Positions 30,058 through 33,014 of a DNA stretch of 42,658 nt are shown in pieces. The notes under the pieces were generated by a model. It was not told the DNA's origin. It searched no databases and saw nothing but the letters and a program-made list of their open reading frames with translations. The DNA comes from Vicinamibacteria bacterium (GTDB lineage Bacteria; Acidobacteriota; Vicinamibacteria; Fen-336). Position numbers and translations under genes: made by a program. The number at the start of each line of letters is the position of its first letter. Positions within the stretch are counted from its first letter, which is position 1. The DNA is taken from NCBI GenBank assembly GCA_025923995.1, contig JAICEW010000012.1, positions 1 to 42,658 of the forward strand. The letters are read 5' to 3'.

Positions 30058-31392
30058 ATGCCCGATCGCGACTACCCCCGCATCCTGGAAGCGCCTCCGG
30101 GGCCGAACGCCCGCGCGCTGATCGAGCGCGACGAGCGCGTGATGTCCCAGAACTTCCGCAAGGACTACCCGCTGGTGGTGTCGCACGGGCGCGGGGCCAT
30201 GGTCGAGGACGTGGACGGCAACCGGTACCTCGACTTCGCGGCCGGCATCGCGGTGACCGCGACCGGCCACTGCCACCCGGACGTGGTGGCCGCGATCCGC
30301 GCCCAGACCGAGCGCTTCCTCCACATGTGCGCGACCGACTTCTTCTACGAGAACGTGGTCGCGCTGGCCGAGGGCCTCGCGCGCCGCGCGCCCGGCCCCG
30401 GGCCGTGGCGCGTGTTCTTCGCCAACTCGGGCGCGGAGGTGGTGGAGGCGGCGATCAAGCTGGCCCGCCTGCGCACCGGCCGGCAGAAGATCGTGGCGTT
30501 CTACGGCGCGTTCCACGGACGCACCTTCGGGGCCATGAGCCTCACGGCCAGCAAGCCGGTCCAGCGCAAGGGCTACGCGCCGCTGGTGCCCGAGGTGCTG
30601 CACACGCACTACGCGCACTGCTACCGCTGTCCCGTGAACCGCGAGCCGGCCACCTGCTCCGTGCAGTGCCTGGACCTGCTGACCGAGACCATGTTCGGCA
30701 CGACCGTGGACCCGTCGGAGATCGCGGCCGTCATCGTAGAGCCGGTGCAGGGCGAGGGAGGCTACGTCGTCCCGCATCCCGGGTTCCTGCCGCGCCTGCG
30801 CGAGCTCACGCGGAAGCACGGCATCCTGCTGATCGCGGACGAGGTGCAGTGCGGCATGGGGCGCACCGGCCGCCTCTTCGCGAGCGAGCACTTCGGCCTG
30901 GAGCCCGACATCGTCACGCTGGCCAAGGGCATCGCGTCGGGCCTGCCGCTGGGCGCGCTCGTGGCGCGCGACGAGGTCATGCAGTGGAACAACGGCGGCC
31001 ACGGCTCGACGTTCGGGGGCAACCCCGTATCGGTCGCGGCGGCGCTGGCGACGCTGCGGCTGCTCGAGGGCGGCCTCATCGAGAACGCGGGCCGGGTGGG
31101 CGCGCGGCTGATCGAGCAGCTCCGCGCCCGTCTGGGGCGCCACCCCGCAGTCGGCGACGTCCGCGGCCTGGGGCTCATGATCGGCGTGGACGTCGTGCGC
31201 GATCGTGGGAGCCGCACGCCCGCGCCCGAGCTGCGCGAGCGGATCCTCGAAGAGGCCTACCGCCGCGGCCTGCTGCTGCTCGGCTGCGGCAAGAGCACGA
31301 TCCGCCTCGCCCCGCCGCTGATCATCGACGACCAGGACGCGGACACGGCGGCCCGCATCCTCGACGAGGCGATCGGAGCCGTGACCGCGTAG
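30058..31392 (+). CDS. Class-III aminotransferase, 4-aminobutyrate aminotransferase-like
   Basis: This 444-residue PLP enzyme resembles GabT/acetylornithine-type transaminases: YLDFAAGIAVTATGHCHPDV, VFFANSGAEVVEAAIKLAR, FYGAFHGRTFGAMSLTASK, ILLIADEVQCGMGRTG and LAKGIASGLPLGALV with the PLP lysine. It carries the same C-x2-C-x8-C-x3-C insert (CYRCP ... CSVQC) as its upstream neighbour. Nine bases separate the two genes and AGGAGG precedes the ATG, so they are one operon. Together they may act on related omega-amino acids. Confidence 0.92.
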   Translation: MPDRDYPRILEAPPGPNARALIERDERVMSQNFRKDYPLVVSHGRGAMVEDVDGNRYLDFAAGIAVTATGHCHPDVVAAIRAQTERFLHMCATDFFYENVVALAEGLARRAPGPGPWRVFFANSGAEVVEAAIKLARLRTGRQKIVAFYGAFHGRTFGAMSLTASKPVQRKGYAPLVPEVLHTHYAHCYRCPVNREPATCSVQCLDLLTETMFGTTVDPSEIAAVIVEPVQGEGGYVVPHPGFLPRLRELTRKHGILLIADEVQCGMGRTGRLFASEHFGLEPDIVTLAKGIASGLPLGALVARDEVMQWNNGGHGSTFGGNPVSVAAALATLRLLEGGLIENAGRVGARLIEQLRARLGRHPAVGDVRGLGLMIGVDVVRDRGSRTPAPELRERILEEAYRRGLLLLGCGKSTIRLAPPLIIDDQDADTAARILDEAIGAVTA

Positions 31393-31473
31393 GGTTCAGC
31401 GATCGGCGCCGAATGGACGGCGCCGCCACCAGCCCCTGGCTGATCGGCGCCGTGCGGACCCTGCGCGCCGATG

Positions 31474-31501
31474 ACTCAACATGTTCCGGAACATGTTGAG
31501 T
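31474..31501. repeat. 28-bp perfect palindrome 1
   Basis: Arms ACTCAAC and GTTGAGT surround the self-complementary core ATGTTCCGGAACAT. All 28 bases are perfectly self-complementary. The next palindrome has the same arms and a different core. Confidence 0.9.
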
Positions 31502-31508
31502 GCTCGTG

Positions 31509-31536
31509 ACTCAACCGGCCGCGCGGCCGGTTGAGT
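31509..31536. repeat. 28-bp perfect palindrome 2
   Basis: Arms ACTCAAC and GTTGAGT surround the core CGGCCGCGCGGCCG. It starts 35 bases after palindrome 1, with a 7-base spacer GCTCGTG. The core shares symmetry and length but not sequence with palindrome 1. Confidence 0.9.
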
Positions 31537-31577
31537 GGCCAGGTCGCAGCGATCGGCGCCGCTGGTGGCGCGCGAAC

Positions 31578-31637
31578 GGCGTACCCGAAGCGGCGCGTGA
31601 ACCGCCCGCTGTCCGCGCCGCCGCGAAGCGGTACGCC
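31578..31637. other. Nested inverted repeat (two-tier hairpin)
   Basis: The outer arms GGCGTACC (31578-31585) and GGTACGCC (31630-31637) enclose the inner arms GCGGCGCG (31590-31597) and CGCGCCGC (31614-31621), with a 16-base terminal loop and unequal internal loops. As RNA this would form a stable two-tier stem. It lies between the twin palindromes and the end of the minus-strand gene. Confidence 0.6.
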
Positions 31638-31682
31638 TGAGCGCGCCGATCGGGCGGCGCCGTCACGAGCCCAGGTCGGCCG

Positions 31683-31898
31683 CTATGCGCGCGGGTAGTT
31701 CTTCTCCACCCAGGCCCGCACGGCCTCTTCGACCTTCGCTTCGGTCGCGCCCGTGATCGTGGGCAGCGGCTCTCCGTTCGTGTTGCGCTCGGGGCAGTAC
31801 AGGAACATCGCGGCGTGGTACTGGCCGGCCTCCCGGTACAGGTACGCCTGCACCTCGCCGCCCGGGCGCTGGAACTTGATGAGCCGGCCGGTCTTCAT
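31683..31898 (-). CDS. Small conserved hypothetical protein, 71 residues
   Basis: The protein starts MKTGRLIKFQRPGGEVQAYL and ends in a helix (EEAVRAWVEKNYPRA). The layout, a beta hairpin and strand (YHAAMFLYCPERN) then one C-terminal helix, suggests a compact single domain. I do not recognise a family. ATG 31898 has no Shine-Dalgarno, but TATCAT lies 9 bases upstream, so the short gene has its own promoter. The 434-residue track ORF is an artefact through the SGNH gene. Confidence 0.7.
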   Translation of the reverse strand: MKTGRLIKFQRPGGEVQAYLYREAGQYHAAMFLYCPERNTNGEPLPTITGATEAKVEEAVRAWVEKNYPRA

Positions 31899-31907
31899 CG
31901 TGGGGCG

Positions 31908-31913
31908 ATGATA
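31908..31913 (-). promoter_or_regulatory. Candidate -10 (TATCAT) of the 71-residue protein gene
   Basis: TATCAT lies 9 bases before ATG 31898 in the 56-base gap after the SGNH stop. No ribosome-binding site follows. Confidence 0.42.
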
Positions 31914-31954
31914 GCGGCCGCGGGCGGGGCTGTCAGCCGTGCGCGGCGCGATGC

Positions 31955-32968
31955 CTACGGACGTCGGAACAGCGAGCGCAGCGACGTCGACGACGAGCCC
32001 GAAGCGCGGCTCGTGATCGCCCGGAAGAACTCGTTCGCGATGACCCGGTAGCCGCGGTCGTTCGGGTGGACCAGGTCCACGAACAGGTCCTCCAGGCGCC
32101 CGTTGGCCTCGCGGACGAACCCCGCGTGCACGTCCGCCACCGGCACGCCTTCCTGCGCCGCCATCGCGCGCACCGCCACGTTCATGCGCGTGATCCACTC
32201 GTTCCGCTCGGGCAGGTTGTCGTGCGGGTTGCACGGGGGGATGGTCCCGAGGACCGGCAGGCTCGAGATCGACTTCACGGCGCCGATCATGCTCTGGAGG
32301 CTGTCGACCGTGTGGCAGGGCACTTCGCCGTTGCAGCGCTTCCAGTCGTTGGTGCCGTAGAGGATCAGCGTGTACGCCGGGCGCACGCGGTTGATCACGC
32401 TCGTGATGCGCGCCGAGCCGTCGTCGCTCTTGCTGCCACCCAGGCCGTCCGCCTCGACCACGCCCCGGCCGAAGTGGCGCTGCAGCGCCTCCTCCAGCGG
32501 CCCGCGGAAGCCGTCGATGTCGCGCGAGCCCAGGCCGTCGGTGATGCTGTCGCCGAACGTCAGGTAGCGGTTGGCCCGGTTGCTGCCGATGGGCAGCGTC
32601 AGCGCCACCGTGCCGGCGCCGGCCTGGGGGACCGACACCGAGGGGGGCGTGCCGGACAGGCGGTAGTAGGGCGGCACGGTCGTGCTGCGCAGCGCGACCG
32701 TGTGCGGGCCGTCCGGAACGTCCGGGACCGTCGTCAGCCCGGTGACCTTGGCCGAGCGGCCGGTCTGGCCGGCGATGTCGACGTCCACGTCGGGGACGGC
32801 CGCGTTCTCGGTGGGCTCCGCGCTGCCGTTCCCGTTCTCGTCGTAGAACAGCACGAGCTGCACCGGATGGCGGGACACCGGCGAGGTCGGGGAGGTGCCG
32901 CCGCCCCCGCCGCAGCCGGCGGCGGTCAGGAGGATCGCGGCGACTGGCCAGCGTGCTGCGCGCTTCAT
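31955..32968 (-). CDS. SGNH/GDSL-type hydrolase lipoprotein
   Basis: This 337-residue lipoprotein (signal ending LLTAAGCGGGGG) has an SdrD-like beta-sandwich (FYDENGNGSAEPTENAAVPD, near residues 40-130) followed by a GDSL esterase domain. Catalytic blocks are FGDSITDGLGSRD (Ser), YGTNDW (block III Asn) and DLVHPNDRGY (Asp-x2-His dyad). It probably deacylates or de-esterifies an envelope or extracellular glycan. ATG 32968 has no Shine-Dalgarno, and TATCTT lies 9 bases upstream. It is divergent from the PilZ gene. Confidence 0.9.
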   Translation of the reverse strand: MKRAARWPVAAILLTAAGCGGGGGTSPTSPVSRHPVQLVLFYDENGNGSAEPTENAAVPDVDVDIAGQTGRSAKVTGLTTVPDVPDGPHTVALRSTTVPPYYRLSGTPPSVSVPQAGAGTVALTLPIGSNRANRYLTFGDSITDGLGSRDIDGFRGPLEEALQRHFGRGVVEADGLGGSKSDDGSARITSVINRVRPAYTLILYGTNDWKRCNGEVPCHTVDSLQSMIGAVKSISSLPVLGTIPPCNPHDNLPERNEWITRMNVAVRAMAAQEGVPVADVHAGFVREANGRLEDLFVDLVHPNDRGYRVIANEFFRAITSRASGSSSTSLRSLFRRP

Positions 32969-32977
32969 GAGCCGCCA

Positions 32978-32983
32978 AAGATA
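32978..32983 (-). promoter_or_regulatory. Candidate -10 (TATCTT) of the SGNH gene
   Basis: TATCTT lies 9 bases before ATG 32968, in a 63-base gap shared with the PilZ promoter. Confidence 0.35.
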
Positions 32984-33014
32984 CCATACCGAGACGCCCC
33001 TTGCCTCCGGGGGG

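Follow-up and report, generated by a model that had tools for sequence, protein, structure and literature searches.

The closest described systems are the GTAG-tagged REPs, REPINs and BIMEs of E. coli and Pseudomonas, which go together with RAYT transposases (PMC3733652, PMC3116915). A second group, the CGTC-tagged REPs of alpha-Proteobacteria and others, consists mostly of dimers and has been reported without a dedicated transposase or a known mobiliser, while Rickettsia palindromic elements are palindromes able to sit in frame within coding sequence (PMC3733652). Here we describe a previously unnamed palindrome family of about 55–60 copies from a soil bacterium; the gene most closely linked to it codes for a multicopy HNH nuclease instead of the usual transposase. 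The window, i.e. the whole stretch of 42,658 nucleotides that was analysed, is contig C12 of a 6.8-Mb Vicinamibacteria-like MAG of 592 contigs (G000).

Twin palindromes in a convergent gene gap

Two perfect 28-bp palindromes, A (ACTCAACATGTTCCGGAACATGTTGAGT) and G (ACTCAACCGGCCGCGCGGCCGGTTGAGT), share the arms ACTCAAC/GTTGAGT and start 35 bp apart (Table 1), exactly as an earlier sequence-only reading had described them; their cores are unrelated and each is self-complementary, again as that reading had it. At the window's own base composition about 0.002 palindromes of 28 bp are expected by chance, no other perfect palindrome of the window exceeds 16 bp, and the arm pattern had no match in the shuffled window. 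A TG had also been pointed out before each palindrome, which is true in the window but not genome-wide, where the seven bases before the arm differ among copies. Most A-type copies carry nTTGCGY-N7 at the place of the left outer half-site variant seen here.

Table 1 Features at and around the twin palindromes. Positions are those of the window; R1 is a covariance model of hairpin, tag, linker and half-site.
Feature	Positions	Strand	Evidence or remark
Acetylornithine/GABA-type aminotransferase family protein, upstream convergent gene	30058..31392	+	NF004426, 622 bits, above cut-off
Left outer half-site variant CCTGCGC and 7-bp linker GCCGATG	31460..31473	.	R1 match C12:31461-31495, E=1.1e-8
Palindrome A: half-site ACTCAA, 16-bp core CATGTTCCGGAACATG (31480-31495), half-site TTGAGT	31474..31501	.	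R1 match C12:31480-31514, E=2.7e-11
Joint TTGAGT-GCTCGTG-ACTCAA: half-site, 7-bp linker (31502-31508), half-site	31496..31514	.	Joint pattern: 51 in genome, 0 in backward control
Palindrome G: half-site ACTCAA, 16-bp core CCGGCCGCGCGGCCGG (31515-31530), half-site TTGAGT	31509..31536	.	R1 match C12:31496-31530, - strand, E=6e-10
Right outer 7-bp linker and degenerate half-site, GGCCAGG TCGCAG	31537..31549	.	R1 match C12:31515-31549, E=6e-6
Y module, separate hairpin-rich repeat	31555..31661	+	Elsewhere in the genome both with and without palindromes
71-aa ORF, convergent partner, no known family	31683..31898	-	Adjoins the aminotransferase in relatives too (tblastn: L031, L019, L021, L022)

In the predicted RNA fold of 31460-31550, an outer CUGCG/CGCAG stem encloses both hairpins of this copy. 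An Rfam search gave no match at the element, its sole match in the window being a tRNA. The short motif GATCGGCGCCG recurs around the element (31397-31411, 31442-31452 and 31547-31561).

Two further repeats were observed next to copies of the palindromes. The Y module is independent, about 100 bp long, and adjoins palindromes at several sites; it stands without them on contigs C90, C168, C227, C39, C69 and C341. The W module, a second repeat around GCCTCGCCGCCATCCGCCTGCGC...TTCGAAC, lies on the A-palindrome side of five copies (L002, L113, L144, L103 and L118), and its true extent is greater than the part shown.

A dispersed family with a fixed joint and covarying cores

The sequence-only reading had been prepared to give up its proposal if the genome held copies with cores that are not self-complementary, or if there were neither further copies nor conservation in relatives. 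The arm-core-arm pattern ACTCAAC-N14-GTTGAGT was found at 28 places genome-wide, 27 of them with a 14-base core and one with 13, and at none in the backward-pattern control, the kind of control from which all genome-wide chance rates were taken. Perfectly self-complementary cores are present at 20 of these places; at the rest, one or two pairs are mismatched.

Alignment of the copies shows conservation of the unit core16-TTGAGY-N7-RCTCAA-core16 rather than of the 28-bp palindrome as such; this unit also forms longer chains with a 35-bp period. Exact joints, TTGAGY-N7-RCTCAA, number 51 in the genome and 0 in the backward control; among 60 relatives there are at most three per genome, which is chance level. 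Pattern, BLAST and model searches combined put the family at approximately 55–60 sites, a figure for a draft genome in which several copies lie at contig ends. All genomes used are MAGs or drafts, where repeats break assemblies and may be collapsed or missing.

The 79 cores collected comprise 52 perfect ones, 21 with one mismatched pair and six with two. At least ten types of perfect core are represented (e.g. CCGGCCGCGCGGCCGG, CATGTTCCGGAACATG, CACGTTGCGCAACGTG, TCCGCCCCGGGGCGGA and CTCGGTCCGGACCGAG), and core types are linked by intermediates. Both sides change in 5/6 scored pairs, 97.5% of cells are paired, and none of 500 shuffles reached the covariation observed. Fixed arms with covarying, self-complementary cores, as proposed from the twins, are therefore a property of the family across the genome (60 distinct palindromes).

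Conservation of an arm is confined to places where a second arm lies opposite it over the 7-bp gap. Arms facing outward from the joint decay (pairs 1-3 of A2 are unpaired in 19, 18 and 26 of 60), whereas bare terminal half-sites, which lack a hairpin behind them, are conserved. At the joint, the variable Y/R ends show no covariation across the gap. From the decay of the outward arms and the independent Y/R ends we take the arms to be sequence half-sites and the cores to be structure; half-site sequence recognition fits the decay better than base pairing of the arms. Selection on folding, or on a dimeric binder of the arms, had been suggested earlier; the copies support this in part and refine it, in that the constraint on the arms differs from that on the cores. 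Base pairing across the 7-bp joint was considered and rejected, given the lack of covariation between the Y/R ends and the poor pairing of TTGCGY with RCTCAA.

Linkers vary from copy to copy. Those of A-G twins have a mean identity of 59%, against 30% expected at random, which means that these twins share an ancestor and that arms and hairpins have been held meanwhile. The arm pattern also turns up in viral contigs, where the cores are not palindromic (about 2/7 pairs); these were discarded as chance matches, and palindromic cores are thus no consequence of the arms. As a separate observation, two loci (L146 on C46 and L144 on C209) have near-identical left flanks and one of them lacks the A palindrome cleanly between the linkers, which looks as if one module was deleted.

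Genomic location and relatives of the repeat

Copies are mostly intergenic and often lie only a few bases past stop codons. Among 49 classified copies, 26 lie in convergent, 19 in tandem and four in divergent gene gaps, as placed by a rough codon-usage caller with which single placements may be wrong; the clustering between convergent genes answers the earlier call to map the palindromes relative to such genes. The twins occupy a 290-bp gap between the aminotransferase gene, whose nearest relatives are in Acidobacteria/Vicinamibacteria MAGs, and the 71-aa ORF. In one relative (L031) the same convergent pair is about 15 bp apart, by reading of the sequence, and is without the repeat, which makes the element look like an insertion in this lineage. 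No flanking direct repeats indicating target-site duplication were seen by eye, and the ends of the element are ragged.

R1 gave 157 one-sided matches in the own genome. In other genera of the family there are a few strong matches (G009, G012 and G006) and weaker ones (G010), in which the grammar is unchanged and the cores are partly new, such as CTCGTTCCGGAACGAG-TTGAGC-N7-GCTCAA-TCCGTTCCGGGACGGA on contig C212 of G009 and the cores CTCTGCACGTGCAGAG and CTCGGGGCGCCCCGAG on contig C200 of G012. A phylum sample of 297 genomes, searched with stricter filters, contained no further genome with an R1 match at E<=1e-5, and DNA similar to the repeat was not found in plasmids. The family is amplified in this genome and has low-copy relatives in other genera.

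A multicopy HNH nuclease family is linked to the palindromes

Three joint-bearing copies overlap the 3' ends of multicopy HNH-type nuclease genes (p about 7e-4), a link absent from the sequence-only reading. The HNH residues of the protein are intact (HH...N...H) and it scores just below the cut-off of Pfam PF01844; a PDB sequence search gave no meaningful relative. The family has about nine genes in G000, with 24 matches in G009, 10 in G002, three in G006 and two in G008. It was not found in G001, G003, G004, G005, G007 and G014-G018, and nearby genomes without it had no convincing palindrome match. Close relatives (E<=1e-40) in the 297-genome phylum sample were found, besides the own genome, only in G008 and G055. 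Phages and viral contigs yielded no relative of the protein, and plasmids only a weak 92-residue match in Deinococcus.

Many of the HNH genes are followed by a palindrome of this kind at no more than 150 bp, with examples in G000 (CAACCGGCCCCGGGGCCGGTTG and ACTCGTTCCGGAACGAGT), G002 and G009 (TTCACCCGTCCCGGGACGGGTGAA) and a near-perfect one in G055, which belongs to another family (ACTCGGTCTGGACCGAGT). The G002 palindrome (C101, L397), 20 bp past the HNH match, is a perfect 30-bp one, GCGCGAACTCTTCCCGGGAAGAGTTCGCGC, and longer than any in the window. A perfect palindrome of at least 18 bp was present within 150 bp in 11/34 HNH 3' flanks compared to 0/69 others (Fisher p=1.4e-6); the control set was 71 gene 3' flanks from three genomes, from which the two with a palindrome (the window twin and an HNH palindrome) had been removed, and flanks started at the conserved protein end for HNH genes and at the called stop for controls.

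The palindrome type is often the same in related HNH genes. In the HNH tree, three of the four strict sister pairs with a palindrome on both members share its first four bases (p=0.003), and the HNH genes of C77 and C71 have a common palindrome core, although the tree does not resolve them as a pair. In G010 and G012 the palindrome is 5' of, or inside, an HNH gene. The deeper HNH branch (the G006 genes and the C167 gene of G000) has no 3' palindrome, and the C167 gene has one 5' of it.

Copy numbers of the two families do not scale: G009 has 24 HNH matches and 11 palindrome matches, G000 about nine genes and 51 joints, and G002 10 HNH matches and one weak palindrome match. Two further points speak against a role of the nuclease: no more than three of the joint-bearing copies in G000 touch an HNH gene, and the protein hardly attains known HNH profiles. 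The palindromes 3' of HNH genes could alternatively be the genes' own 3' hairpins, copied by gene duplication. The W and Y modules had no convincing match at HNH loci.

Possible origin of the repeats

The account we favour, at about even weight, is that the twins belong to a dispersed, modular family of REP/REPIN-like repeats, of which they are one copy, and that the RAYT's place is probably taken by an HNH nuclease. The solo twins are most likely non-autonomous copies, with the HNH family as their partner. The unit consists of two hairpin-forming 16-bp cores, set head to head via TTGAGY-N7-RCTCAA, with a 35-bp period in longer chains. Replacing a RAYT, the HNH nuclease would recognise the TTGAGY-tagged hairpins, and it may have helped to spread them directly, or may nick or break them so that repair copies them. 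Because a hairpin must stay foldable to be recognised, cores would change only in compensating pairs. At the 3' end of a gene a hairpin would do no harm or be of slight use (transcript end, mRNA protection), and for this reason copies would have been retained chiefly there. The fuller version, an HNH-driven analogue of the REP/RAYT system and a mobile bacterial repeat of a new kind, in which the multicopy nuclease recognises the tagged hairpins, cores co-evolve with it lineage by lineage and non-autonomous twins have spread to gene 3' ends, we advance only tentatively.

The leading alternative is a simple hairpin at the 3' end that serves the transcript. The repeats would then be host elements without mobility, bidirectional terminators or mRNA-protecting hairpins, and the HNH genes would use the same kind of terminator. 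We consider this unlikely, although the strong bias to gene 3' ends, often a few bases past stop codons, is what it would lead one to expect, the RNA fold of the element is very stable (z=-6.9) and its symmetry makes it usable on both strands. Termination had been raised by the sequence-only reading, but the element has no U-tract, its tail after the hairpin is TTGAGY, and no terminator-like site was found in 30500-33000. Most other convergent gene pairs of the window overlap or nearly touch and have no such element, so that it is no general terminator here, and the relative that retains the aminotransferase pair does so without it. The conservation of bare terminal half-sites is not explained by a hairpin either. 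Mismatched pairs on the tag-followed strand showed, by inspection, no consistent G-U over A-C that would assign an RNA strand.

Self-complementarity might also be maintained by mutation and not by selection. Correction of quasi-palindromes by template switching, which perfects imperfect ones, is a known process, and both the excess of perfect cores over those with one and two mismatched pairs (52 > 21 > 6) and the intermediates between core types are consistent with it. However, the outer arms of the same palindromes decay uncorrected, and HNH-linked palindromes of independent history keep similar length and layout, which makes this account improbable.

Slightly more improbable still is that TTGAGY-N7-RCTCAA is the binding site of a dimeric DNA-binding protein, perhaps one that organises the nucleoid or chromosome, the hairpin cores being a by-product. 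Half-sites invariant only across joints, a linker fixed at 7 and an R/Y pattern without covariation across the gap suit such a binder; neither the cores, which stay self-complementary despite sequence change, nor the HNH association is explained by it, and the sites are nearly absent from relatives, where those of a conserved regulator should persist.

Integron attC sites are longer, asymmetric, imperfect hairpins with bulges, arranged in a cassette array beside intI, and have the R-box consensus RYYYAAC/GTTRRRY. Although the arms ACTCAAC/GTTGAGT fit this consensus and the genome encodes an IntI on contig C414 (TIGR02249, 453 bits against a cut-off of 265), an attC-like recombination site is very improbable and was rejected, as the elements are 28 bp and perfectly symmetric, TTGCGY half-site variants depart from the consensus, a scan (L394) showed none of them on the intI contig, and what appears by eye to be an ordinary attC, starting GTCCAAC, follows intI there. 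That region (L166, 1084-2190) holds an intact-looking IntI, a gene and the apparent attC, unlinked to the palindromes.

If hairpin sequence tracks a different multicopy nuclease, the favoured account, in which the HNH family partners the repeat, would amount to a second and testable REP partner system. A fixed tag, a fixed 7-bp gap and freely covarying cores make sequence recognition and hairpin recognition separable in one natural data set.

Comparison with known systems

The element differs from intrinsic terminators in that TTGAGY, and no U-rich tract, follows the hairpin. With attC sites it has in common the fit of its arms and the capacity to fold as hairpins; it differs in size, symmetry, spacing and position. 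The structured element of IscB/HEARO systems is a long upstream RNA. An HNH nuclease gene beside a structured element is found here too, but the element is a short 3' palindrome that Rfam does not match in the window, and the match to IscB is insignificant and only over the HNH motif (E=0.015). As in Rickettsia palindromic elements, palindromes occur in frame, here at the C-termini of HNH genes; the sequence is unrelated and most copies are extragenic.

Like CGTC-tagged REPs, the repeats are palindromic and mostly dimers. They have no consistent CGTC tag and no CCA tail, and a different stem and loop. Only some of the A-type copies have CGTC after the arm, and the combination of a CGTC/TGTC/CCTC tag with a CCA tail is not seen. 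Unlike CGTC REPs, the repeats have a candidate partner gene.

A RAYT-type transposase, for which the sequence-only reading had suggested looking, is absent: PF01797 (Y1-type RAYT) had 0 matches in G000 and none in the repeat-bearing G009, and as it is present in G012, RAYT presence in relatives does not follow the repeats. The invariant tag is TTGAGY, not GTAG. With both the tag and the transposase of GTAG/RAYT systems lacking, the family is not a member of that class, and its fixed 7-bp joint linker, its loopless 16-bp palindromic cores and its HNH-type partner gene set it further apart. The likenesses to GTAG REPs and REPINs are nevertheless several: palindromes of 20-40 bp that recur tens of times, mostly in extragenic DNA, stem variants whose changes on the two sides are complementary, tagged inverted doublets (here core-TTGAGY-N7-RCTCAA-core), convergent and tandem over divergent location (here 26/19/4), and a linked nuclease or transposase gene that carries a copy at its own border.
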